This document shows positions 20,357 to 36,370 of a stretch of DNA of 36,596 nt, piece after piece; position 1 is the stretch's first letter, and each line of letters opens with the position of its first letter. The position numbers and the translations under genes were made by a program. Source of the DNA: Pontiellaceae bacterium B1224 (GTDB taxonomy: Bacteria > Verrucomicrobiota > Kiritimatiellia > Kiritimatiellales > Pontiellaceae); the NCBI GenBank assembly GCA_029432815.1, contig JAROBA010000047.1, forward strand, positions 1 to 36,596, read 5' to 3'. The notes under the pieces are model-generated. The model was given only the letters and a program-made list of their open reading frames with translations, did not search any database and was not told the origin of the DNA.

Positions 20357-21601
20357 ATGAGTGGACGTAAAGTAGTGGTCACCGGTCTGGGTGTCGTTTC
20401 GCCTGTGGCCAGCGAGCTTAACGCTTTCTGGGAAGGTATCAAAAACGGGAAGTCCGGTATCGGTCTGGTCAAGCAGATGGATGATATCGAAAATTATCCT
20501 GTTCAAATTGGCGGCGAAGTCCGAGATCTCGATATTGAAAGGTTTGTAGATAAAAAAGATGCTCGGAAAATGGACCCGTTTTCCATCTACGGCGTTGCGG
20601 CAGCTGTATTGGCGATTGAAAATTCGGGAATGGACCTTTCGATGGTCGATCTCGAACGCGTCGGTGTCATTGCCAGTTCCGGTATAGGCGGTATGCAGGT
20701 GATGCAGAATGAATGCCTCAAGGCCTATGAAAAAGGTCCGCGTCGTGTTTCCCCGCAGCTCATTCCCCAGATGATCACCAATATTCTCTCCGGATATGTT
20801 TCAATCAAATACGGCTTTAAAGGCCCCAATTTCTGTGTCACCAGCGCCTGTGCGTCGGGAACACACTCCATCGGCGAAGCCATGCGCATTATTCAGTACG
20901 GCGATGCGGATGTCATGATTGCCGGTGGATCCGAAGCTTCGGTCGCGATGCTCGGTGTGGCCGGCTTTGCTGCGCTCCGTGCCACCAGTCGCCGGAACGA
21001 CGATCCTGAAGGCGCATCCCGTCCGTTCGATAAGGAGCGCGATGGATTTGTCATGTCGGAAGGAGCCGGTATTGTGGTGCTGGAATCCGAAGAGCATGCT
21101 CTGGCCCGTGGGGCCACGATTTATTGTGAAGCTGCAGGTTATGGCCGTACCGGCGATGCGTATCACGTTACCGCTCCGGCGGAAGAGGCTGATCAGGCGG
21201 CGCGTGGAATGAAGTTGGCAATCAAGGATGCGGGGCTGACGCCGGACGATATTGATTACATCAATGCCCACGGCACTTCGACTTATTTTAACGACAAGGG
21301 TGAAACCATTGCCATCAAGAAAGCGCTTGGCGAAGAAAAGGCCTATAAAACAGCTGTCAGCTCGACTAAATCGATGACTGGGCACATGCTGGGAGCAGCC
21401 GGTGGAATTGAAGCTGCCATTTGTGCGTTGGCAATTCGCGACAGCATTGCTCCTCCGACGATCAACTACACCACGCCGGATCCCGAATGCGATCTGGACT
21501 ATGTGCCGAATGTGGCGCGCGAAATGGAAATTAATGCGGCGCTGAGCAACTCGCTCGGTTTCGGCGGGCACAACGCCACACTCTGTTTTAAGAAAATCTA
21601 G
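20357..21601 (+). CDS. fabF: 3-oxoacyl-ACP synthase II
   Basis: Elongating beta-ketoacyl-ACP synthase. The 414-residue protein has the Cys-His-His triad of KAS II in SACASGTHSIGEA, INAHGTSTYFNDKGE and KSMTGHMLGAAGG, and the C-terminal NSLGFGGHNATL. It is the last gene of the yceD-rpmF-plsX-fab operon, directly followed by a terminator. Confidence 0.98.
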   Translation: MSGRKVVVTGLGVVSPVASELNAFWEGIKNGKSGIGLVKQMDDIENYPVQIGGEVRDLDIERFVDKKDARKMDPFSIYGVAAAVLAIENSGMDLSMVDLERVGVIASSGIGGMQVMQNECLKAYEKGPRRVSPQLIPQMITNILSGYVSIKYGFKGPNFCVTSACASGTHSIGEAMRIIQYGDADVMIAGGSEASVAMLGVAGFAALRATSRRNDDPEGASRPFDKERDGFVMSEGAGIVVLESEEHALARGATIYCEAAGYGRTGDAYHVTAPAEEADQAARGMKLAIKDAGLTPDDIDYINAHGTSTYFNDKGETIAIKKALGEEKAYKTAVSSTKSMTGHMLGAAGGIEAAICALAIRDSIAPPTINYTTPDPECDLDYVPNVAREMEINAALSNSLGFGGHNATLCFKKI

Positions 21602-21604
21602 ATT

Positions 21605-21619
21605 TTCCAACCATTGGAA
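21605..21619. repeat. 15-bp palindrome, fabF-hldE gap copy 1
   Basis: Exact TTCCA-ACCAT-TGGAA copy just after the fabF stop codon. Confidence 0.85.
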
Positions 21620-21625
21620 GTGAAC

Positions 21626-21660
21626 AAGGCGTTCCGCTCGGCGGAACGCCTTTTGTTTTT
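21626..21660 (+). terminator. Terminator of the fab operon
   Basis: AAGGCGTTCCGC and GCGGAACGCCTT form a perfect 12-bp stem with a three-base loop, followed by TTTTGTTTTTT. It lies 24 bp after fabF. Confidence 0.93.
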
Positions 21661-21666
21661 TACGGC

Positions 21667-21681
21667 TTCCAATGATTGGAA
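21667..21681. repeat. 15-bp palindrome, fabF-hldE gap copy 2
   Basis: Exact, perfectly self-complementary arms TTCCAAT and ATTGGAA around one central base (TTCCA-ATGAT-TGGAA). Confidence 0.85.
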
Positions 21682-21695
21682 GAAAACGCCATGTT

Positions 21696-21710
21696 TTCCA
21701 GACCTTGGAA
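21696..21710. repeat. 15-bp palindrome, fabF-hldE gap copy 3
   Basis: Exact TTCCA-GACCT-TGGAA copy. Confidence 0.85.
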
Positions 21711-21718
21711 ACAGTGCT

Positions 21719-21733
21719 TTCCAATGATTGGAA
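21719..21733. repeat. 15-bp palindrome, fabF-hldE gap copy 4
   Basis: Exact TTCCA-ATGAT-TGGAA copy, the same sequence as copy 2. Its right arm, GGAAG, also serves as the ribosome-binding site of the next gene. Confidence 0.85.
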
Positions 21734-21739
21734 GATATC

Positions 21740-22237
21740 ATGAGAAACTTTGAAGACAAAATTATGACCCGTGAGCAGATGATTGCTGAGCGGGCGCGAT
21801 TAAAAGAGCGGGGGGCGGTCGTTTCGTTTACCAATGGATGTTTCGATATTCTGCATCCCGGCCATGTGACCTATCTGCAGTTCGCCCGCGAGCAGGGCGA
21901 TGTGTTGGTGCTGGGGATGAATTCCGATGCATCGGTGAGGCGGAATAAGGGCGATGACCGGCCGATCGTTTGCGAAGAGGATCGCGCCAAAGTGATTGCT
22001 GCACTGGAGTGCATTGATTATGTGGTACTCTTCGACGAAGACGAGCCGCGTGAGCTGATTGCCGAGATTCTTCCCGATGTGTTGGTGAAAGGCGAGGACT
22101 GGGCGCACTATGTTTCGGGTCGCGAAGAAGTGGAAGCCGCCGGCGGCAAAGTGGTGCTCGCCAAAATGGTCGAAGGCCGTTCGACCACCAATGTCATCGG
22201 ACGAATTTTAGAAGTGTACGGAAAGACGGAGAAATAG
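21740..22237 (+). CDS. D-glycero-beta-D-manno-heptose 1-phosphate adenylyltransferase (HldE C-domain type)
   Basis: Nucleotidyltransferase that makes ADP-heptose for the LPS core. The 165-residue protein corresponds to the second domain of HldE (RfaE2). It has TNGCFDILHPGHVTYL with the HxGH motif at residues 39-42, LGMNSDASVRRNKG, and the late VEGRSTTNVIGRI segment. The kinase domain is absent, so another gene must supply it. I use ATG 21740 (MRNFEDKI), spaced six bases from GGAAG, in preference to an upstream TTG. The hldD-type gene begins one base after its stop. Confidence 0.93.
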   Translation: MRNFEDKIMTREQMIAERARLKERGAVVSFTNGCFDILHPGHVTYLQFAREQGDVLVLGMNSDASVRRNKGDDRPIVCEEDRAKVIAALECIDYVVLFDEDEPRELIAEILPDVLVKGEDWAHYVSGREEVEAAGGKVVLAKMVEGRSTTNVIGRILEVYGKTEK

Positions 22238-22238
22238 A

Positions 22239-23204
22239 ATGTCTATCAAATATATCGTAACCGGCGGGGCCGGGTTTATCGGCAGCAACATTGTGAAAGA
22301 ACTCAATGCGCGAGGCGAGGATGATATTCTGATCGTCGATTCGCTGGGCATGGGCGAAAAGTGGAAAAACCTCGTCGGTTTGCGTTATGAAGATTACCTG
22401 GATAAAAACGATCTGTTTACCGTGTTGGCTGATGGAATTCTGGCTGATGTGGAGGCAGTTTATCATCTGGGCGCCTGCAGCGCGACTACGGAAAAGGATG
22501 CCGACTATCTGGCCGAAAATAATTACGGCTACACCCGTGCGCTGTGCGAAGAGTGTCTGGCGCATGAGGTCCGGTTTGTTTATGCCTCCAGTGCTGCCAC
22601 CTATGGCGATGGAAATTTAGGCTATTCGGATGCCGATGAAGAAACCCCGAAATTCAAGCCGCTGAATATGTACGGCTATTCCAAGCACATGTTTGATCTT
22701 TGGGCGCTGAAAGCGGGTGTTGCGGATCTGATTGCCGGCATGAAATATTTTAATGTCTATGGTCCCGGCGAGGGACACAAAGACGATATGCGCTCGGTGA
22801 TTCATAAATCCTATTTCCAAATATTGGAAACCGGCGAAGTGAAGCTCTTTAAATCGCATCGCCCGGATTACAAAGACGGCGAGCAGGTTCGTGATTTCGT
22901 CTACGTGAAAGATGCGGTGAAAGAAACGCTTTGGTTTGGTGAAAACCGCCAGGTCGGTGGGGTCTTCAACTGCGGAACCGGCACGCCGCGCACCTGGGTG
23001 GATCTGGTCTCGTCTGTATTTAAAGCGATGGGTCGCGAGCCGAACATTACGTTCATTGATATGCCGGAGCATCTGCAGGGCAAGTATCAGTATCACACAC
23101 AGGCTGATCTCACGAAGCTGCGTTCGGTGGGCTATGATGCCGAGTTCACAGCCCTCGAAGATGGCGTGGCCGATTATGTTCAGAATTATCTGATGACCGA
23201 ATAA
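22239..23204 (+). CDS. hldD: ADP-L-glycero-D-manno-heptose 6-epimerase
   Basis: Converts ADP-D,D-heptose to ADP-L,D-heptose, the LPS inner-core sugar donor. The 321-residue extended short-chain dehydrogenase has the GGAGFIGSN nucleotide loop at residues 9-17, the heptose-epimerase signature SLGMGEKWKNLVGL, the ASSAATYGDG serine region, and the YGYSK catalytic pair. It adjoins the adenylyltransferase, the previous step of the same pathway. A palindrome copy (22815-22829) encodes FQILE. Its TAA overlaps the next ATG. Confidence 0.93.
   Translation: MSIKYIVTGGAGFIGSNIVKELNARGEDDILIVDSLGMGEKWKNLVGLRYEDYLDKNDLFTVLADGILADVEAVYHLGACSATTEKDADYLAENNYGYTRALCEECLAHEVRFVYASSAATYGDGNLGYSDADEETPKFKPLNMYGYSKHMFDLWALKAGVADLIAGMKYFNVYGPGEGHKDDMRSVIHKSYFQILETGEVKLFKSHRPDYKDGEQVRDFVYVKDAVKETLWFGENRQVGGVFNCGTGTPRTWVDLVSSVFKAMGREPNITFIDMPEHLQGKYQYHTQADLTKLRSVGYDAEFTALEDGVADYVQNYLMTE
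22815..22829. repeat. 15-bp palindrome in hldD
   Basis: Exact copy, spacer AATAT, read as FQILE. Confidence 0.8.
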
Positions 23205-24451
23205 TGGCGGTCAGTATTGCCGAGATGATCCTGCTGGGTTTGCTGGCAGATTGGATATTTCGCAAACTGCGGATGCCCGGATTGCTGGGCATGCTTCTGC
23301 TCGGCGTTCTGTTCGGCCCCTATGTTTGGAATTTGATGGATCCCGGCTTTCTGGCGGCCTCTTCCGATCTTCGGATGATTGCGCTGATTATTATCCTTCT
23401 CCGGGCCGGGTTTGAACTGAGTCGGGATGTGCTCAAGCGCGTCGGCGTACAGGCATTGTTGATGTCTTTTATTCCAGGGGTGCTTGAGGGCGGGACGATT
23501 GCGCTGCTCGGCCCGAAATTTCTGCCGCTGACTCATCTGGAGTCGGCCATGCTCGGTTTTATTATTGCGGCTGTTTCTCCTGCAGTGGTAGTGCCCATGA
23601 TGATCAGCTTTATTGAGCGGAAGATGGGAGCGAAGAAGGGTATTCCGACCCTGATTCTGGCCGCGGCATCGTTGGATGATGTGGTTGCCATTGTCATCTT
23701 TACGGTTTTTCTTGGATTTTATACCGGATCTGCCGAAAATATTCTGCTGAAAGTAGCTGGTATTCCGGTTTCAATTGTGGCCGGTATCGTTGTTGGATTG
23801 CTGATCGGACTTTTGCTGGTTAAACTCTTTGAGCGTTTTAATCCGCGGGCAACCAAACGGACGATGATTGTGATTGGTGTTTCCATACTGCTGGTCCGAT
23901 TTCAGGTTCTGCTGGAAGGGTGGGGGATTCCTTTTGCTGCTCTGTTGGCTGTGATGGCCACGGGCTACATCATCCTTCAAAAACGTGAACACATGGCGCA
24001 TGAGATTTCTTCCAAACTTGGGAAACTCTGGGTTTTTGCGTCGATCATGCTGTTTACGCTGGTGGGTGCTAAAGTGAACGTTTCTCTGGCCTGGCATACC
24101 GGGCTGGCGGGGCTTGGATTGATTGTGTGCGGACTTGTGGCACGCAGTGCCGGCGTTTTTCTATCTCTTACCGGCAGTGCCCTGAATCTGCAGGAGCGTC
24201 TGTTTACTGTGGTATCCTATTGGCCGAAAGCCACCGTGCAGGCGGCCATGGGAGCGGTTCCGTTGGGGGCCATGGTGTCGATGGGGATGGATACCGCTCC
24301 GGGTGAGGTTATTCTGGCGGTGGCCGTGACGAGTATTGTCTTTACTGCTCCGCTTGGAGCTGTGGCGATTAAACTGGTGGGTGAGCGCACGCTTCAGCCG
24401 GAAACGGATGGCACGTATGCGGCTGCAGATGCGGCTTTAGAGAGTCGCTAG
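23204..24451 (+). CDS. Cation/proton antiporter (CPA family)
   Basis: A 415-residue integral membrane protein with about 12 hydrophobic segments, probably exchanging Na+ or K+ for H+. The DD pair (Asp158-Asp159 in AAASLDDVVAI) marks the ion-binding site of electrogenic monovalent cation/proton antiporters. The first segment, LADWIFRKLRMPGLLGMLLLGVLFGP, is the family's conserved opening. The C-terminal regulatory domain found in KefB or NhaP2 is missing. It overlaps hldD by one base (TAATG), so it is cotranscribed with heptose genes. The substrate cannot be assigned. Confidence 0.88.
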   Translation: MAVSIAEMILLGLLADWIFRKLRMPGLLGMLLLGVLFGPYVWNLMDPGFLAASSDLRMIALIIILLRAGFELSRDVLKRVGVQALLMSFIPGVLEGGTIALLGPKFLPLTHLESAMLGFIIAAVSPAVVVPMMISFIERKMGAKKGIPTLILAAASLDDVVAIVIFTVFLGFYTGSAENILLKVAGIPVSIVAGIVVGLLIGLLLVKLFERFNPRATKRTMIVIGVSILLVRFQVLLEGWGIPFAALLAVMATGYIILQKREHMAHEISSKLGKLWVFASIMLFTLVGAKVNVSLAWHTGLAGLGLIVCGLVARSAGVFLSLTGSALNLQERLFTVVSYWPKATVQAAMGAVPLGAMVSMGMDTAPGEVILAVAVTSIVFTAPLGAVAIKLVGERTLQPETDGTYAAADAALESR

Positions 24452-24903: not shown

Positions 24904-27726
24904 ATGAAGTTTCTCTGCCGTTCTTACGGACACGCTTTCAAGGCAACGCTGCTGGCGGTCGCGTTTTCTACGGGCATTGCTGTCGCTCAGGATTATTCTT
25001 CTTTGGGCATAACGGATCTGGTCAGCTCGGCTGACCGCATGTTGCAGCGTCGCGACTTTGACGGAGCTATTCCGGCACTGGTCGAAATTATTAATCGAAC
25101 AGGTTCATTAACCGACCCACAGGGAAGGGATACGGCACAGACCTGCCGTTTCCAACTTGCGCGGGCGTATTATCAGATAGGCAACACCGCCGCTGGTGTA
25201 GAGATCCTTGACGACTATCTTGCAAACGAGCCGCGTAAGAAAGAACGCATGGCATTGCGCATGATGGCGCAGGGTTTCTTTGATACACAGGAGTGGGAGA
25301 AAATTGAAGAAATCTCAACGAGATTGCTCACCTTTCCCGACCTGAGTAGAGAAGATATATATAATGCCAATCTATTGCTCGGTCAGGCCTGTTTCCGTTT
25401 GGAAAAGTGGGCCGAAGCGGTCGAACCGCTCGGTTATGCTGCAAGAAACACGAAAGACCCGCGGGTTGAAGGGCTTTGCCAGATAATGATTGTGCGGGCT
25501 CTGGTGGAAGCGGAAAGCTGGCGTGAACTGTTCGGCTGGATTCCGCAGATTTATCGCACGGATTCCAAGTATGATATCTCGCTCAACCTGACTCTAATGA
25601 AAGCGGGTAAGGCCCAGTTTGAAGCCGATGAATTTCTCAATGCACTCCTGTTGTATCGTATGGTACTTCCCCGGGAAGAGTTGCTGGCATTTGCTGACGA
25701 GCGTCTTAATGATCTGAATGTTAAACTGGATGCTGATTTAAAACGGGGAATCGCTGAAGCAGAGATTGAAGAACGACGGAGCGAAATTACAGATATTGAG
25801 GCATCCAAAACAACGCTGGAGGAACTTCCTCCTTACGAAGACGAAGTCACCTTTCGTATCGGCCAGATTTATGCAGAAGTTAAGCGTTACTGGGAAGGGT
25901 ATGTTCTTTTTGACAAGTTATATCAGACGGACCGCAACAGCGAAATCGGCGAAGCATCCATGTTGCAATCCGTGTTGGTTCTCTACGATATTGAGCAGAT
26001 AGACCGGGCGGAAGAACGTATTCTGCTTTATCTCGCTGAAAAACCGGATGGTCAGTATGCGCGTACTCTGCTCTCTATGATGATGCGTGACAATCTCGTG
26101 CGGCAGAATTTCAGCAGCGTTGTTGAGCTCCGTCCCCATGTAGAGATGCTTCCGGCCACTCAGGACGAGGATGAACTTTCTCTACAGGCTGACCTCCATT
26201 TCATGCTGGCTTTTGGTTACCTGCAGAGCAAAGATTACAAATCGGCCGGAGAACAATTCGGTGTGCTGATTAATAACTTTAAAACCAGCTCGCATCTGGC
26301 GGATGCCGTTTATTATCGCGGTATGTCCTTCATGCTGCAGGCCAAATACGCTGATGCCTTAGAAGATTTCCTGAAATATCAGGCAGAGAACGAATTTGGT
26401 GAGCATATTGCAGCATCCCTGTTCCGGGAAGGGGTATGTCAGTATGGACTTGAAGATATTGATGCAGCTCAAGCTGCTTTTACATCCTTTATTGAAAAAT
26501 ATCCGGACGATGCGTTGACTTCCGAGGCCTACAGTATGCGAGGCGATATCGAAGCTTCCAAGGAAGCAACAACCGAAGACCCGTATACGCTCGATCGTGC
26601 GCTGGCCGACTACCGGAAAGGTATCGACAAGGCAACCTCCCCGCTCCAATCGGCCTATGCGGCTTTCCAGGCTGCTAAAGTGTATAAGCTCGAATTCAAG
26701 TGGCAGGAAATAATCGATCTGATGAACTACTATATGGATCGATGGGAAGAAGAAGCCAATGTGGCTGAAGCGGTCTTCTGGATCGGCCAGGCGCAGATTG
26801 AGCTCGGCCAGGTTGGCGATGCAGTGACTGCATACCTCAATGCGATTGAGCGTTTCGGGAATGACCCGTTCCAGCAGGGTGTTGATAAAATTATTCTGGA
26901 GCTCGTTAAAGTCGCCAATACTCACCTTTCCACCGAAGATCGCGAAGGTTTGGTAATTAAGCTGAAACTGAAGCTCACGAATATTGATTTACGCTATGAG
27001 GTGTTGCGGTTGCGCTTGCAGGTTGCTGAGGCAATGTTGCAGGGCGATGATATTGCCGCGGCTTTCGGGGCAGAGCTGCTTGAAGCAGATACAGATCTGA
27101 AATTAACCACTCCCGCTTCACTGTCCCTGATGTGTGATGCTGCGGTGGATATCGGTAATCAGGAGGAAATGCAGCGTTTGTATAATTACTTCATCGAAAA
27201 TTATGAAGACTCAGACCTTCTCTGGCATGCATACCGCGCAATAACCTACTTCCACCTTGCGGAGAAAAACTACGATGGTGTGCTGGCAAGTATTGATGAA
27301 GCACAGGGCCTGTTCGGTGCAGAACCCTTTATGGGCTGGGCACAGATTTTCAAAGCCGACACCGAATATAAGATGAATAATTTCACGGAAGCTGAAGACT
27401 CTTACAATATGGTCATGGGTGTGGCGGAGTGGCGCGGACCGTTGTTTGCGGAGGCGATGTTCGGAATGGGCAATTGCCGTCTGGCTGTCGGTGATCTGGA
27501 AGCGGCCCACTCTTTCTATCAGCGAGTTTATCTGCTCTTTAAAAGCTATGCAGATGGCGATTGGGCTGCCAAAGGGTATCTTGCTGCCGCAGATGTGTTG
27601 ATTAAAATGGGTGACGATGAAGGCGCGATCAATACCCTTAAAGCCATGTTGGAAGATGAATACACGAACACAAACCCACTTGCTGAACAGGTTCGTATTC
27701 AGCTTAAGAAATACGGGGGCCAATAA
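24904..27726 (+). CDS. Large exported TPR-repeat protein
   Basis: A 940-residue protein of probable periplasmic location. ATG 24904 follows GAGGGG by seven bases and begins a signal peptide (MKFLCRSYGHAFKATLLAVAFSTGIAVAQ). The rest is a long array of degenerate tetratricopeptide helices, with units such as ADRMLQRRDFDGAIPALVEI, FGYLQSKDYKSAGEQFGVLI and VYYRGMSFMLQAKYADALEDFL, and no enzymatic motif. This suggests a scaffold. The next gene starts on its stop codon (TAATG). It opens an operon with a second TPR protein, ExbB and two ExbD proteins, so it likely docks to that energised complex. The cargo is unknown. Confidence 0.85.
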   Translation: MKFLCRSYGHAFKATLLAVAFSTGIAVAQDYSSLGITDLVSSADRMLQRRDFDGAIPALVEIINRTGSLTDPQGRDTAQTCRFQLARAYYQIGNTAAGVEILDDYLANEPRKKERMALRMMAQGFFDTQEWEKIEEISTRLLTFPDLSREDIYNANLLLGQACFRLEKWAEAVEPLGYAARNTKDPRVEGLCQIMIVRALVEAESWRELFGWIPQIYRTDSKYDISLNLTLMKAGKAQFEADEFLNALLLYRMVLPREELLAFADERLNDLNVKLDADLKRGIAEAEIEERRSEITDIEASKTTLEELPPYEDEVTFRIGQIYAEVKRYWEGYVLFDKLYQTDRNSEIGEASMLQSVLVLYDIEQIDRAEERILLYLAEKPDGQYARTLLSMMMRDNLVRQNFSSVVELRPHVEMLPATQDEDELSLQADLHFMLAFGYLQSKDYKSAGEQFGVLINNFKTSSHLADAVYYRGMSFMLQAKYADALEDFLKYQAENEFGEHIAASLFREGVCQYGLEDIDAAQAAFTSFIEKYPDDALTSEAYSMRGDIEASKEATTEDPYTLDRALADYRKGIDKATSPLQSAYAAFQAAKVYKLEFKWQEIIDLMNYYMDRWEEEANVAEAVFWIGQAQIELGQVGDAVTAYLNAIERFGNDPFQQGVDKIILELVKVANTHLSTEDREGLVIKLKLKLTNIDLRYEVLRLRLQVAEAMLQGDDIAAAFGAELLEADTDLKLTTPASLSLMCDAAVDIGNQEEMQRLYNYFIENYEDSDLLWHAYRAITYFHLAEKNYDGVLASIDEAQGLFGAEPFMGWAQIFKADTEYKMNNFTEAEDSYNMVMGVAEWRGPLFAEAMFGMGNCRLAVGDLEAAHSFYQRVYLLFKSYADGDWAAKGYLAAADVLIKMGDDEGAINTLKAMLEDEYTNTNPLAEQVRIQLKKYGGQ

Positions 27727-28601
27727 TGAAGAAATCAGTTTTTAGTTTTGCACTTGCCGGTGTTTTTATACTGGGTGTTGCATCAGAAGCCGCATCGCTG
27801 CAGGCCGAGTTGATCATGCCGGGCGGTCGCTCCTGGAAAGGACTGGTCGTTAGCCGGGATGGCGACTGGGTTGAATTCTCCACCGGTGCCACCAAGCCGA
27901 TTCGGGTGGGGGCCGACACGATTGAAGAGTTGGTGTTTGAGGTGAACATTGATCAGGAAAAGATCAATGAAATGAATCGAAATCGTGAATACGAACGCAT
28001 TATAGCGGCGTTGGACAGTGCGCTGGAACCGTATGCTGAATACAGCGACATTCCTTCAAATCTGGTCAAATACAATTCGATCCTCATGGAACTCCACTAC
28101 AAAACGAAGAATTATGATAAGGCACTGGAGATTGCTCAAAAGATTGCCATGGATGAGCGTGATCCTGAACTTCAGGATCAGAGTCGCGTCTATCAGGCCT
28201 TGTCGCTGATTGATGCCGGTCGTTCCGAGGCAGCGGAAGAACTGCTCGCTGAATTCGGATGGGATCAGGATCTCAGTGACGATTCCTCTCCGCAAAAATT
28301 ATATATTGCCGCAAAGTTGATGGTCTTGAAGGAGCGGTATGCTGATGCTATGGAACTGGTGGCAAAAGTTGTTGCTTTTAACAGTCAGGATCCCGAGTGG
28401 ATGCAGCCGGCGGAATTGCTTTGTGCAGAAGTTTATACGGAACTCGGAATGTACGATTCTGCTGAAGAGGTCATTCGTGAGATTTCACTGTTGTACAAAA
28501 ATACAAATGAAGACGATCTCGCACAGCAGCTGAAAATTCGTATTGAAGAACTGCGGGCGGAGAAGGAATTAATTGAATCTACAGAGTCTGAAGAAGTTTA
28601 A
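27726..28601 (+). CDS. Exported TPR-containing protein
   Basis: A 291-residue protein with a signal peptide (MKKSVFSFALAGVFILGVASEAA). A short beta-rich segment at about residues 27-75 (AELIMPGGRSWKGLVVSRDGDWVEFSTGATKPIRV) is followed by TPR-like helices (LMELHYKTKNYDKALEIAQKI, VYTELGMYDSAEEVIREI) and an acidic C-terminus. Its start overlaps the large TPR gene's stop, so the two are coupled and probably form one complex. ExbB follows 23 bp later. No known function. Confidence 0.82.
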   Translation: MKKSVFSFALAGVFILGVASEAASLQAELIMPGGRSWKGLVVSRDGDWVEFSTGATKPIRVGADTIEELVFEVNIDQEKINEMNRNREYERIIAALDSALEPYAEYSDIPSNLVKYNSILMELHYKTKNYDKALEIAQKIAMDERDPELQDQSRVYQALSLIDAGRSEAAEELLAEFGWDQDLSDDSSPQKLYIAAKLMVLKERYADAMELVAKVVAFNSQDPEWMQPAELLCAEVYTELGMYDSAEEVIREISLLYKNTNEDDLAQQLKIRIEELRAEKELIESTESEEV

Positions 28602-28624
28602 CTGATAGGAGAAGGAGTAAAAAA

Positions 28625-29392
28625 ATGACAAAAAAAATTATCAAACTGGCTTTCTGCCTGAGTCTGGTTATCGGCCCGGTTGCTTTTGCCCAGGAAGTCG
28701 TGGAAGTAGAAGAAGTTACCGTTGAAAATGTTCAGAAGACAACCCTTTGGCAGATGATCAAGCAGGGGGGCTGGGCGATGTGGCCGTTGGGACTAATGTC
28801 CATGGGCATGGTATATTTCATCGTACAGAACGGCCTTGGTTTGCGTGAAAAGGTGCTGCTGCGCCCGGATATGATTCCGGAATTCATTACCCTGATGAAA
28901 GACAAAAAAATCTTGGAAGCCCACAGCCTGTGCAAAGAAAATGAAACCTTGTTCACCTATGTTTTTCAGGCGGGTCTCGAACGTTGTTCGACTACTCGTG
29001 AAATCAACTTCAGCAAAGTGAAAGAAGCCATCGAAGAAGCTTCCACGGAAGAAATTACATCCTACATGAAACCGATCGATTATCTTTCCATTATCGGTGC
29101 AACCGCCCCGATGCTCGGACTGCTCGGTACCGTTTCCGGTATGATCAAAGCCTTCCAGACCATTGGTTCAAAAGGTATGGGTAAACCGGAAGAACTCGCC
29201 GGTAACATTGGTGAGGCACTGGTGACAACCGCGACCGGTCTCTTGATCGCGATTCCTTCGATGCTGGCATATTACTTTTTCCGTAATAGCTTTATCAAAT
29301 CTACTGCGACCCTCGGCCGTAACATCGGCGGACTGCTTGATACACTTGAAACCGGCGAACTTCCGCTCGGATTCGAAAATGCAGGTGAGTAA
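28625..29392 (+). CDS. MotA/TolQ/ExbB family proton channel protein
   Basis: A 255-residue inner-membrane protein that with ExbD forms a proton-driven motor. An N-terminal signal-peptide-like segment (MTKKIIKLAFCLSLVIGPVAFAQ) and an acidic stretch precede the first family helix (WAMWPLGLMSMGMVYFIVQNG). The cytoplasmic region is followed by the conserved core YLSIIGATAPMLGLLGTVSGMIKAFQTI and EALVTTATGLLIAIPSMLAYYFF. The cleavable leader is seen in some ExbB subgroups. GGAGAAGGAG precedes the start. It is third in the TPR-TPR-ExbB-ExbD-ExbD operon. Confidence 0.95.
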   Translation: MTKKIIKLAFCLSLVIGPVAFAQEVVEVEEVTVENVQKTTLWQMIKQGGWAMWPLGLMSMGMVYFIVQNGLGLREKVLLRPDMIPEFITLMKDKKILEAHSLCKENETLFTYVFQAGLERCSTTREINFSKVKEAIEEASTEEITSYMKPIDYLSIIGATAPMLGLLGTVSGMIKAFQTIGSKGMGKPEELAGNIGEALVTTATGLLIAIPSMLAYYFFRNSFIKSTATLGRNIGGLLDTLETGELPLGFENAGE

Positions 29393-29445
29393 GTCGGGGT
29401 CTTTTGATACCTGTGATTATCAATCCCTCCAAAGCGGGGTATTAA

Positions 29446-29850
29446 ATGAAAATTAAAACACCAGCCAGGGACGACGTAGCCATCGACATGGGACCCATGA
29501 TCGACTTGGTTTTCCTGTTGCTCATCTTCTTTATGGTGGCATCGGTCGTGACGGAACTGAAAAAGGTTCCGGTTGAGATTCCGGAATCTTCCCATGCCAA
29601 AGTTCCTGAAGACATGAAAAACCGAATGATGCTGTCTATTGATGCCAACAATCAGGTGTATGTCGGAACGACGCCCGTATCGATTGAAGAACTGAAGGTT
29701 CAAGTCGATGAGGAGCTGAACATCAGGCCCGATCTGCGCATTTTGATTCGTGCGGATAAGCGTGTAGAGTACAAAACGTGCAAAGATATTATGATTGCCT
29801 GTGGTGCGGTCGGTGCAACCGACCTTATCTACGCAACCTTTGAGGAATAA
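29446..29850 (+). CDS. ExbD/TolR family protein (first)
   Basis: A 134-residue protein with a short cytoplasmic N-terminus, one membrane helix containing the proton-carrying aspartate (MIDLVFLLLIFFMV), and a periplasmic domain ending in YATFEE. It follows exbB by 53 bp and precedes a second exbD by two bases. The two differ enough to suggest a hetero-oligomer with ExbB. Confidence 0.95.
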   Translation: MKIKTPARDDVAIDMGPMIDLVFLLLIFFMVASVVTELKKVPVEIPESSHAKVPEDMKNRMMLSIDANNQVYVGTTPVSIEELKVQVDEELNIRPDLRILIRADKRVEYKTCKDIMIACGAVGATDLIYATFEE

Positions 29851-29852
29851 CG

Positions 29853-30287
29853 ATGAAACTTATTGAAGAAATGATGAATAAGAGTGCGAAGCTGGAAATT
29901 GCTCCGCTGATTGACGTCGTTTTCCTGCTGCTCATCTACTTCATGGTTACGGCATCGCTGGTCAAAAAGGAAGCCGATCTCTCCTTCATGCTTCCTGCAA
30001 AAGTGGATGTTCCGGATTCCCTGGACCTGCCGATTGAAGTGCTGATCGAAGTATCAGAACTCGGTGATATTGTCATCAATGGCATGGTTTTTGGGAGTGG
30101 CGAAACCAATCTGGATGATCTGATCGGCCAGCTTCTTACACTGAAAGAAGCGGCAGATTCATCGGGAAGTGAGCTGATTGTGAATATCATGCCGGCCGAC
30201 AAAGCCATACACGGCCGAATTATACGCGTCATGGATGCATGTGCCGCAGCCAATGTGAAGAACATGTCATTCAGCATGTCGATGTAG
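29853..30287 (+). CDS. ExbD/TolR family protein (second)
   Basis: A 144-residue paralogue with the same layout: the aspartate-bearing helix LIDVVFLLLIYFMV, then a periplasmic domain with ADKAIHGRIIRVMDACAAANVKNMSF, the family's C-terminal helix. It is two bases downstream of the first exbD. A terminator follows 42 bp after its stop. Confidence 0.95.
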   Translation: MKLIEEMMNKSAKLEIAPLIDVVFLLLIYFMVTASLVKKEADLSFMLPAKVDVPDSLDLPIEVLIEVSELGDIVINGMVFGSGETNLDDLIGQLLTLKEAADSSGSELIVNIMPADKAIHGRIIRVMDACAAANVKNMSFSMSM

Positions 30288-30329
30288 CAACCAATGTGAG
30301 GTGGCGAAGTTTTTTGCTGCTCTCCTTTC

Positions 30330-30361
30330 AATGCCCGGTACTTTTACCGGGCATTTTTTTT
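30330..30361 (+). terminator. Terminator after the second exbD
   Basis: ATGCCCGGTA and TACCGGGCAT form a 10-bp stem with a four-base loop, then eight T. The same ATGCCCGG stem is used again at 31695-31723. Confidence 0.92.
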
Positions 30362-30452
30362 CAAAAACCTTAAAATAAAGGTGGGACCACAGGCGTATTA
30401 ACTTACATCGGTTTGTCAGATCAGGAAAGTATCCTCAGATAAGGGTGAAATA

Positions 30453-31691
30453 ATGAGTGAAAAAAAGAAAAAAGGTTTCTTCTCGAATCACGCCAAATCC
30501 AGCGCTGCAATGATCAGTCTGGGAATTCATGCCATCCTGATTGTGGCGGCGGTTTCCTTTGTTGCGGTTACCGTAATTCAAAAAGAAGATAAACAATTTG
30601 TGGCGAAGACGGTTTCCAGACCTTCAGTAAAGCTGAGAAAATTGCAGGTCCCGGTTAAAGTAAAAAAAGACAAACCCAAACCAAAACTGCGGAAGCGCGT
30701 TGTCGTAAAAGATGTCCGGCGAAAAACCCCCGATTTTAAAATGCCGGAAATTACCGGCGTCAAAGGCGGGATGGGAAACATCGGAGGCGAAGGTAGCGGA
30801 ATGGAAAGCATTGGTTTTTCCATGCCTGAAATGAATTTTCTGGGAGCCAAGGCCAAAGGCGATAAGGTGGTATTTGTGGTTCACTTTGGTCCGGCGCCAA
30901 TCAGTGGCGGTGGAGATGGGGGCAATGGGACCCCGTTTTCCCGGATGACCGGTTTAACGATTCGGAATCGTTTGGAAGATCTGGTTGATAGCCTGCCCGA
31001 GTATACCCTCTTTAATGTGATTGCCTATTGGTCCGTCGATGCCTGGGCAATGGAACCCACCATGCAACTGGCCACTGCAGCAAATAAGCAGAAGGTGAAA
31101 GACTGGATGGAACCAGTGAATCCGCTTATCGGTAAATATGCCCACTGTTTTGATAAAAAACCGAAAACCATCAGTAGTGCGCGCAACAATTATCCCAGGA
31201 AAGTTGAAAAGCTGCCCTTTTATGCCACGAAATGGGCCTATCCATATCAGGTGCCTTCTGAGCTTGAAAAGAAATATGCACCGGATGCTCCCGAGGGTAT
31301 CAAGCATTGGGGAAGAGGGGTGGCATGGGCCATTCTTGAGCAAAAGCCGGATACCATTTTTGTGCTGACCACAAACTATATCGATGGCTGGGGTACAGTT
31401 GGTTCGAATGAAAGGTCTTTTCAACCCAGAAAAATGGCGCAGTCGTTACAGCAAATGTGCCTGGATGTCTACGGCTCGGACAAGCGGAAATGGCCGACCA
31501 TCAACGTTGTTGTACTGGCCAAAGCGGGGAAAGATTCAACCGCTGCCAACAAGGTTCTGCGGGATCAGTTCGGACCGATCATTTCTTCGTTCAGAGCAGA
31601 TGGATCAGTGATAGATGATATTAAGAAATATATGAATGAATCTGAACAGGCTCTGTATCGTAAATATCAGGTTGAATACGGAAATAAATAG
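30453..31691 (+). CDS. TonB-positioned membrane protein with degenerate von Willebrand A-like domain
   Basis: A 412-residue protein with one membrane helix (about residues 18-42), then a Lys/Pro-rich periplasmic linker (VKVKKDKPKPKLRKR) as in TonB, a glycine-rich segment (105-117), and a C-terminal domain from about residue 136. That domain has a vWA-like frame: the first strand GDKVVFVV, the helix LEDLVDSLPEYTLFNVIAYWSVDAWAM, and the strand KPDTIFVLT. The metal site is gone: the usual DxSxS after strand one is HFGPA, and the usual LTDG is LTTN. No TonB C-terminal domain is seen. It lies in the place of tonB after exbB-exbD-exbD but beyond a terminator, so it may have its own promoter in 30362-30452. 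Its function is unknown. Confidence 0.7.
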   Translation: MSEKKKKGFFSNHAKSSAAMISLGIHAILIVAAVSFVAVTVIQKEDKQFVAKTVSRPSVKLRKLQVPVKVKKDKPKPKLRKRVVVKDVRRKTPDFKMPEITGVKGGMGNIGGEGSGMESIGFSMPEMNFLGAKAKGDKVVFVVHFGPAPISGGGDGGNGTPFSRMTGLTIRNRLEDLVDSLPEYTLFNVIAYWSVDAWAMEPTMQLATAANKQKVKDWMEPVNPLIGKYAHCFDKKPKTISSARNNYPRKVEKLPFYATKWAYPYQVPSELEKKYAPDAPEGIKHWGRGVAWAILEQKPDTIFVLTTNYIDGWGTVGSNERSFQPRKMAQSLQQMCLDVYGSDKRKWPTINVVVLAKAGKDSTAANKVLRDQFGPIISSFRADGSVIDDIKKYMNESEQALYRKYQVEYGNK

Positions 31692-31694
31692 AGC

Positions 31695-31723
31695 AAATGC
31701 CCGGTAATGCCGGGCATTTTTTA
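31695..31723 (+). terminator. Terminator after the vWA-like gene
   Basis: AAATGCCCGG and CCGGGCATTT form a 10-bp stem with a five-base loop, followed by a T-rich run. The core stem ATGCCCGG/CCGGGCAT is identical to that of the terminator at 30330-30361. Confidence 0.92.
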
Positions 31724-34727: not shown

Positions 34728-35381
34728 TTATTCAGGAAGTTGAATGTCGGTCCAGAGCTCAGCATTCGGGTGGTCGGCTAGGGCGATTCCTGCGGGGATG
34801 GATTGAGGATCGGTGACCAGGGTATTGATGATGTCCCGCTTGGATTCGCCAGTGACGAGCAGGATAATTTTTTCCACTCGTTGGAAAAGGGCGGGGGTCA
34901 CACTGACGCCTTGCATGCCGTCGGGGCGGTCGGTATGCAGGGTGAGCCGGTCCTGAATCCGTGCCTGTTCCGGGGTGAAAAAACCGGCGGTATGCCCGTC
35001 ATCGCCCATACCGAGAAAACCGAGGTCCACACTTTGCATTCGTTCGAGACCTTCAGCGAAGTGTTCTGCCGCCGCCTGGGCGGAGAGTGTGGTGTCAACC
35101 TGAAGAAATTGACCATGGCAGTTGAGTCCCTGAAGCAGAGGCAATAGGTTGTGAGCATTATTTTTCGGCGAGCTGAAGGGCTGCATCCGTTCGTCGCTCA
35201 GAAACAGGTTGCGCTGTGGATGCACCAGGCAGGGGGCTGCGGCCAGACGGTTGTAAATAACATAGGGCGTGGACCCTCCGCTCAGCATCAGGTTTCCAGG
35301 CGTTGGAAGGGTGGTGCGCAAAAGTTCCAGAGTTTGGAGGATCAGTTTTTCAGTGGTTTCAAAGGTTCGTATTTTTATCAT
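34728..35381 (-). CDS. pgl: 6-phosphogluconolactonase (DevB type)
   Basis: Hydrolyses 6-phosphogluconolactone in the oxidative pentose phosphate pathway. The 217-residue protein has the sugar-isomerase-like motifs LSGGSTPYVIYNRL and FLSDERMQP, and the lactonase signature LGFLGMGDDGHTAGFFTP. It is slightly short, which is usual for this subgroup. It is upstream of the M16C protease on the same strand with a 69-bp gap. Palindromes at 34872 and 35294 encode FQRVE and PTPGN, and a one-mismatch copy at 35325 encodes LQTLE. Confidence 0.94.
   Translation of the reverse strand: MIKIRTFETTEKLILQTLELLRTTLPTPGNLMLSGGSTPYVIYNRLAAAPCLVHPQRNLFLSDERMQPFSSPKNNAHNLLPLLQGLNCHGQFLQVDTTLSAQAAAEHFAEGLERMQSVDLGFLGMGDDGHTAGFFTPEQARIQDRLTLHTDRPDGMQGVSVTPALFQRVEKIILLVTGESKRDIINTLVTDPQSIPAGIALADHPNAELWTDIQLPE
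34872..34886. repeat. 15-bp palindrome in pgl
   Basis: Exact copy, spacer CTCGT, read as FQRVE. Confidence 0.8.
35294..35308. repeat. 15-bp palindrome in pgl
   Basis: Exact copy, spacer GGCGT, read as PTPGN. A one-mismatch copy lies at 35325-35339. Confidence 0.8.
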
Positions 35382-35470
35382 GGGATGAGATTAATCGGTT
35401 CGGCATTGGGTGACCATCATTTTACGCAAACATCATTGCCCGTAAATGCGGATTAAGGCACATTTGAAGC

Positions 35471-36370
35471 ATGCTTAAATTGATTTTGAATACGTTCATT
35501 AAACTGATTTCCATCATGCCGCTGCCCATGGTTCGCGGGTTGGGATATGTGGTCGGTTTTGTTTTCGGTAATGTGATCCGGCATCACCGAACGGATGCCT
35601 TACTGGCGCTGGAGCGTTCCATTCCGGAGCTTACGCCGCGGGAATGCAAGCGCACCATCAATACGATGTATCATCTTCAGGGTGTCAACTTCATGGAATT
35701 GATCTGGTATTCAACAAAGGATCGTAGCCGGCTTTTTGATGCGGTTGAAGTGGAGAACGAACACTACATCACAGAGGCTCTTTCCCGGGGTAAAGGCGTT
35801 TTGGCGTTGACTGCGCACTTTGGTAATTTTGAGCTGTTGACCATGGCGACCGGTGCTTTGGGTTATAAAATGACTGTGATTGTGAAGCCGATTAAAACCC
35901 CCGCAGTCAATGAAGCCATGACCAAACTCAGGGACCATGAAGGGCTGACATTTCTGGATCGGGATAATGCGTATCGGGACTGCCTTAAGGCGCTTCGGAG
36001 AAATGAATTTGTCGGGATGATTATTGATCAGAACATGATTCGGGAATCGGGAATATTTGTCGATTTCTTTGGCCGGCCGGCCTGTACCTCCCCGGGGCTC
36101 GCCTATATGTCGGCTCAGTCGAAAGCCCCGGTGCTGCCGGTGTTCATTCACAAAAAGAGTGACGGACGATTTCTGCTGAAAGTTCAAAAACCGATCGACC
36201 CGCCGGTCGACCGCAGCCCGGAGGTGATCCAGGCGGCGACGCAGTTGTATACGAAGGTGATTGAGAGTGCTGTCCGGGAAGATCCTAAGCAGTGGATCTG
36301 GATGCATCGCCGTTGGAAAACGACACCGGTGGAAGGTGAGGCCGGTTTTGTGCGCGCTAAAAAATCCTGA
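35471..36370 (+). CDS. Lysophospholipid acyltransferase family protein (LpxL/HtrB type)
   Basis: A 299-residue inner-membrane enzyme probably adding a secondary acyl chain to lipid A. An N-terminal membrane anchor (residues 1-35) precedes the HtrB family region. The catalytic H-x4-E motif is at His116-Glu121 (HFGNFE), and the IDQNMIRESGIFVDFFGRPACTSPGLA block is typical. It ends in WIWMHRRWKT. It stands alone, divergent from pgl. The family role is established, but the exact acyl position cannot be told. Confidence 0.92.
   Translation: MLKLILNTFIKLISIMPLPMVRGLGYVVGFVFGNVIRHHRTDALLALERSIPELTPRECKRTINTMYHLQGVNFMELIWYSTKDRSRLFDAVEVENEHYITEALSRGKGVLALTAHFGNFELLTMATGALGYKMTVIVKPIKTPAVNEAMTKLRDHEGLTFLDRDNAYRDCLKALRRNEFVGMIIDQNMIRESGIFVDFFGRPACTSPGLAYMSAQSKAPVLPVFIHKKSDGRFLLKVQKPIDPPVDRSPEVIQAATQLYTKVIESAVREDPKQWIWMHRRWKTTPVEGEAGFVRAKKS

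Follow-up and report, generated by a model that had tools for sequence, protein, structure and literature searches.

A TPR–ExbB–ExbD–ExbD cluster with a TonB-like vWA protein in a Pontiellaceae bacterium, a probable force-transducer system with exchangeable heads

Force transducers with vWA heads have been described in PVC bacteria (PMC12204202, 2025). In the accessible part of that report, these proteins are built from a transmembrane (TM) segment with a docking histidine, a disordered linker and a vWA head, and the transducer gene lies downstream of a TPR gene, a tolQ-like gene and two tolR-like genes; the transducer TM helix is described as binding the edge of the motor, and a role in gliding is suggested.

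The locus described here lies in a 36,596-nucleotide stretch of DNA (hereafter the window; contig C146) from the 5.4 Mb draft genome of Pontiellaceae bacterium B1224. Among named bacteria, Pontiellaceae bacteria B12219 and B12227 and Pontiella sulfatireligans are the closest to it, which places it in class Kiritimatiellia; the genus Pontiella comprises marine degraders of polysaccharides. All six open reading frames of the original prediction are present and in the predicted order: two exported TPR proteins, an ExbB, two different ExbDs, and a TonB-like protein with a vWA fold (Table 1). The TPR1 start codon is the same in relatives, and the predicted overlap of the two TPR genes is a single base shared by the TPR1 stop and TPR2 start codons (TAATG). 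ExbB has a hydrophobic N-terminal leader ending in AFA-Q, as anticipated, and retains the motor motifs GTVSG and GEALVTTATGL in an alignment to the solved TolQ structure 8odt; ExbD1 aligns through its TM aspartate to the solved ExbD 7ajq. An SHD1 identity for the N-terminal domain of TPR2 was rejected, the resemblance being weak (hhalign 43%).

Table 1. Features of the motor cluster, in window coordinates.
Feature	Position	Strand	Description
TPR protein 1 (TPR1)	24904..27726	+	940 aa; exported, TM-free after signal peptide; Pfam TPR families
TPR protein 2 (TPR2)	27726..28601	+	291 aa; signal peptide, small N-terminal domain, TPRs (Pfam/NCBIfam)
ExbB/TolQ motor protein	28625..29392	+	255 aa; leader peptide; MotA_ExbB 5.7e-29
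ExbD 1	29446..29850	+	134 aa; ExbD 2.9e-27; TM aspartate within PMIDLVF
ExbD 2	29853..30287	+	144 aa; differs from ExbD1; ExbD 9.7e-18; TM aspartate within PLIDVVF
Intrinsic terminator, exbD2/vWA gene gap	30330..30355	+	MFE -18, z -6.4
TonB-like transducer with vWA head	30453..31691	+	412 aa
Transducer TM anchor	30510..30584	+	TM residues 24-42; docking motif [ST]xxxH = SLGIH, residues 22-26
Lys/Pro-rich disordered linker	30585..30815	+	residues 45-121; pLDDT <50 over 63-121
vWA-fold head	30816..31640	+	degenerate MIDAS: VVHFGPA replacing DxSxS
Terminator 3' of vWA gene	31695..31719	+	

As far as the accessible part of PMC12204202 goes, its vWA transducers share with the window protein an SHLS-type motif with a conserved histidine (SLGIH with H26 in the window), a proline-rich or disordered linker (Lys/Pro-rich in the window), a C-terminal vWA fold, and a place after TPR, tolQ-like and two tolR-like genes, although in the window a terminator intervenes. 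The window cluster belongs to this kind, and the original description of the machine as uncharacterised does not hold. In the same part of the paper we find mention neither of a terminator before the vWA gene nor of MIDAS loss, both seen in the window, nor of the PA14 heads, fission and fusion with SHD1, many unlinked transducers and motors without a linked transducer seen in the relatives and the source genome. A literature search of incomplete coverage returned no paper on a PA14 transducer with ExbB/ExbD, its sole match concerning GH3 enzymes.

The cluster shares its motor family and a TonB-like anchor and linker with the Ton system (ExbB-ExbD-TonB), but differs in having two ExbDs, no TonB_C domain and no receptor nearby. 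With Tol-Pal it shares the motor family and a TPR partner, whereas matches to TolB and Pal are absent at the cluster. As predicted, neither a TonB receptor gene nor a Tol-Pal gene was found among the neighbouring genes scanned with Pfam and NCBIfam (20.3-36.4 kb). TonB_C genes of the source genome lie on contigs C129, C193, C182 and C55, three of which also carry plug-domain receptors and ExbB, and a Tol-Pal-like set on C149 comprises a TolQR-type motor, a weak TolB_N match and an OmpA domain. Since Ton and Tol-Pal-like loci exist separately in the genome, the window system is a third one, neither Ton nor Tol-Pal. The Vibrio TonB2 system (TtpB/TtpC/TtpD) is likewise of ExbB/ExbD/TonB type, and its operon includes the gene of a TPR protein, TtpD2; it has TonB and TtpC, whereas the window has a single 255-aa ExbB and another gene order. 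On another reading the cluster would stabilise the outer membrane, as a duplicate of Tol-Pal or in its place, and TPR1 would be the analogue of CpoB; TPR1 does pass the YbgF/CpoB model (104.5 versus 90.1 bits). That score, however, is the sum of generic TPRs, for which reason TPR1 is not regarded as a true CpoB, and a TolQR-TolB-Pal-like locus already exists on C149; we consider a Tol-Pal substitute improbable.

The surroundings of the cluster (20357-24451 and 34728-36370) hold fatty-acid genes, heptose genes (HldE-type adenylyltransferase and epimerase), LpxL-type lipid A genes and a Na/H exchanger; the genes on the upstream side (20357-24451) are conserved within the genus.

The product of the last gene has the TM anchor, SLGIH motif and Lys/Pro linker that had been predicted for it, and its C-terminal domain has no Pfam match and no TonB_C match. 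An AlphaFold2 model (AF2, mean pLDDT 72) compared by VIA-align has a clear vWA fold, in keeping with the predicted vWA-like domain, with Z 14.8 to ITIH1 (168 residues, rmsd 2.6) and Z 13.5 to the bacterial structure 4fx5. The MIDAS is canonical in homologues from other families (DVSVSM, TTRLD, ISDG) and is lost in the Pontiellaceae orthologues at the window locus (VVHFGPA); because its residues are absent, a metal-binding role for the window vWA was rejected. In the anchor, S22 and H26 are conserved (alignment A2), H26 nearly invariantly so, and [ST]xxxH is present in 19 of 20 checked paralogues of the source genome and 24 of 32 wider members, while none of 56 background TM segments has it.

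The original prediction placed the vWA gene in the tonB position. It does follow exbD2, but a terminator stands between the two, so the vWA gene is probably a transcription unit of its own, separate from the motor operon. Equally strong hairpins with different stem sequences are present in four orthologous Pontiellaceae exbD2/vWA gaps; since the hairpin is kept while its sequence changes, termination at this point appears to be under selection. In G126, which among the genus members of this layout diverges most, the gap is 15 bases long and has no hairpin. A terminator at this place speaks against the motor and the vWA gene being strictly co-expressed.

Conservation of the gene order, proposed as a check on the original prediction, was found well beyond chance across class Kiritimatiellia. 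The whole block NHX-TPR-TPR-ExbB-ExbD-ExbD-vWA-M16 is kept in four close relatives, an orthologue of TPR1 is present in each of the 10 genus genomes, and 61 of the 146 class genomes contain a match to it. Matches to both TPR1 and the vWA transducer occur in 55 of these 146, to one alone in 5 and 6, and to neither in 80, the genomes being related and hence non-independent; outside Pontiellaceae, 29 of 37 genomes have the two genes no more than 10 kb apart on the same contig. There is good support for a conserved module of proton motor, TPR proteins and vWA protein that is separate from Ton and Tol-Pal. Five genus genomes (L109-L113), of which one is assembled as a single contig of 4.1 Mb, have the syntenic motor cluster with no adjacent vWA gene. 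A search with an anchor profile found anchors in 13 of 13 genus genomes, 2 to 30 in each, and those five carry several at other places. The missing neighbour in these five and the conserved terminator 5' of the vWA gene would both suit a reading in which that gene stands apart from the motor beside it, its product drawing energy from some other ExbB or from none, and in which its proximity in Pontiellaceae is a relic. We think this unlikely, given that exbD2 and the vWA gene are immediate neighbours in distant families (gaps of -20 to 23 bp) and that the vWA gene product retains the docking motif.

The head encoded in the tonB slot is exchanged among relatives. The slot holds a vWA protein in the window and its own relatives, a PA14 protein in L120, L121, L122, L188, L195 and L198, and a vWA followed by a PA14 protein in L185, making seven clusters with a PA14 protein (L185, L188, L195 and L198 come from a phylum-wide PA14-profile search, in a sample of 20 loci). 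In a sister family (G081, twice, and G052) the gene directly 3' of exbD2 encodes an anchored PA14 protein whose C-terminal half is a second gene; in Pontiellaceae the anchored part and the C-terminal half are fused in one gene. As either PA14 or vWA is found at one locus position, they replace one another as heads on a single motor family. SxxxH is missing in L198 and in L179, L180, L191 and L192 (four loci of one other family), so coupling cannot be assumed for every PA14 homologue. The proteins of these last four loci are single-TM PA14 proteins of one Verrucomicrobiota family (a genus with 2-3.5 Mb genomes) and are not encoded directly beside a motor.

Two further arrangements were observed. 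At L185:9229-12241 (G006), the tandem vWA and PA14 transducers have similar N-terminal regions that appear SAM-like by eye, which suggests that the two heads may pair in the cytoplasm through them. At L086:6842-9307 (G033), an 821-aa protein composed of a Ser/Thr protein kinase, a TM segment and a vWA head adjoins a TPR-TPR-ExbB-ExbD-ExbD cluster; cytoplasmic signals might possibly reach the motor, or leave it, through this protein.

Transducers of this type are numerous in the source genome, which has 22 anchor-profile matches and about 20 proteins sharing this anchor and linker versus two such motors. Regular occurrence of the vWA-like gene elsewhere with a known partner had been named in advance as refuting the original prediction; this applies in part, since vWA paralogues do occur elsewhere, though with no known partner. 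Two main kinds of head occur, vWA-like and PA14-like, the latter usually followed by an SHD1-like domain. The model of one PA14-type paralogue (AF2, mean pLDDT 77) resembles PA14 domains that bind sugars (Z 12.2, 162 residues, rmsd 3.3), and its SHD1 part gives Z 9.3 and rmsd 1.6; adhesin domains are among the structure matches to the PA14 head.

These adhesin matches, with adhesion-type vWA and PA14 heads, speak for a gliding or surface-adhesion machine like Myxococcus Agl-Glt, a role also suggested in the accessible part of PMC12204202. AglR/AglQ/AglS consist of one MotA_ExbB and two ExbD proteins, there are TPR Glt proteins, and the TonB-like GltG interacts with AglR (PMC3169522); one TolQ with two TolR proteins, a TonB-like transducer and TPR proteins are thus common to AglRQS-Glt and the window. 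The transducer domains differ, neither the FHA nor the TonB_C domain of GltG type being found in the window genes (Pfam/NCBIfam), and the heads, being membrane-tethered, are probably periplasmic and not on the surface. We know of no gliding phenotype, which also counts against this analogy, and on balance we doubt that the cluster is a gliding or adhesion device.

The reading of the observed genes, gene order, motor residues, docking motif, head folds and head swap that we consider probable is instead a pmf-driven system of the vWA-transducer kind, in which exchangeable periplasmic heads take hold of envelope or glycan partners, with TPR proteins as the scaffold. ExbB would probably form a pentamer around an ExbD1/ExbD2 pair (a 5:2 motor) turned by proton flow. 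The TonB-like protein is predicted to dock on ExbB through its SxxxH helix, with the Lys/Pro linker spanning the periplasm so that the motor could pull on the head; the two TPR proteins may serve as the periplasmic scaffold. The heads, vWA or PA14, would be exchangeable and probably grip an envelope or polysaccharide partner, and PA14 heads would point to glycans as the partner class.

The Pontiellaceae motor may also serve unlinked transducers. We put forward tentatively, with rather more doubt than confidence, that a whole array of unlinked vWA and PA14 transducers draws on one pmf motor in common, giving Verrucomicrobiota a force on polysaccharides or glycan-bearing envelope partners that does not pass through TonB receptors. 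It counts against this that the genome has several further ExbB loci by which the unlinked transducers could be driven. If motor sharing is right, the ExbBD-type motor would be a general power source for interchangeable tools, beyond its partnership with TonB or TolA, and a large unannotated gene set in polysaccharide-degrading marine bacteria would be accounted for. The five genomes without a linked transducer make motor sharing directly testable.

An association of transducers with sulfatase loci was considered and dropped: a sulfatase lies within 5 kb of 7 of 19 transducers in the source genome (p 0.005), but this did not replicate in a second genome (G148; 9 of 21 transducers versus 15 of 51 random genes, p 0.2), and no such link is claimed. 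Pfam tallies of transducer neighbours place glycoside hydrolases and LacI regulators somewhat above random regions, and PEP-CTERM proteins are in slight excess; both are suggestive only.

The second TPR-TPR-ExbB-ExbD cluster of the source genome is on C111, with a vWA/PA14 pair nearby. Four ExbD genes, forming two ExbD1/ExbD2 pairs, lie there behind one ExbB (L056:251-2267). At L126:3658-5516 (G148) a transducer is divided into two ORFs, a 156-aa vWA-type anchor and a 424-aa PA14/SHD1-like protein, possibly through head exchange or a frameshift. The source genome also encodes a fusion of zf-HC2, a TM segment, two copies of the same Lys/Pro linker and a YfbK-type vWA (L057:7170-9548; C127:217169-219547), which lacks SxxxH, has an intact MIDAS and adjoins a gene resembling a sigma factor.
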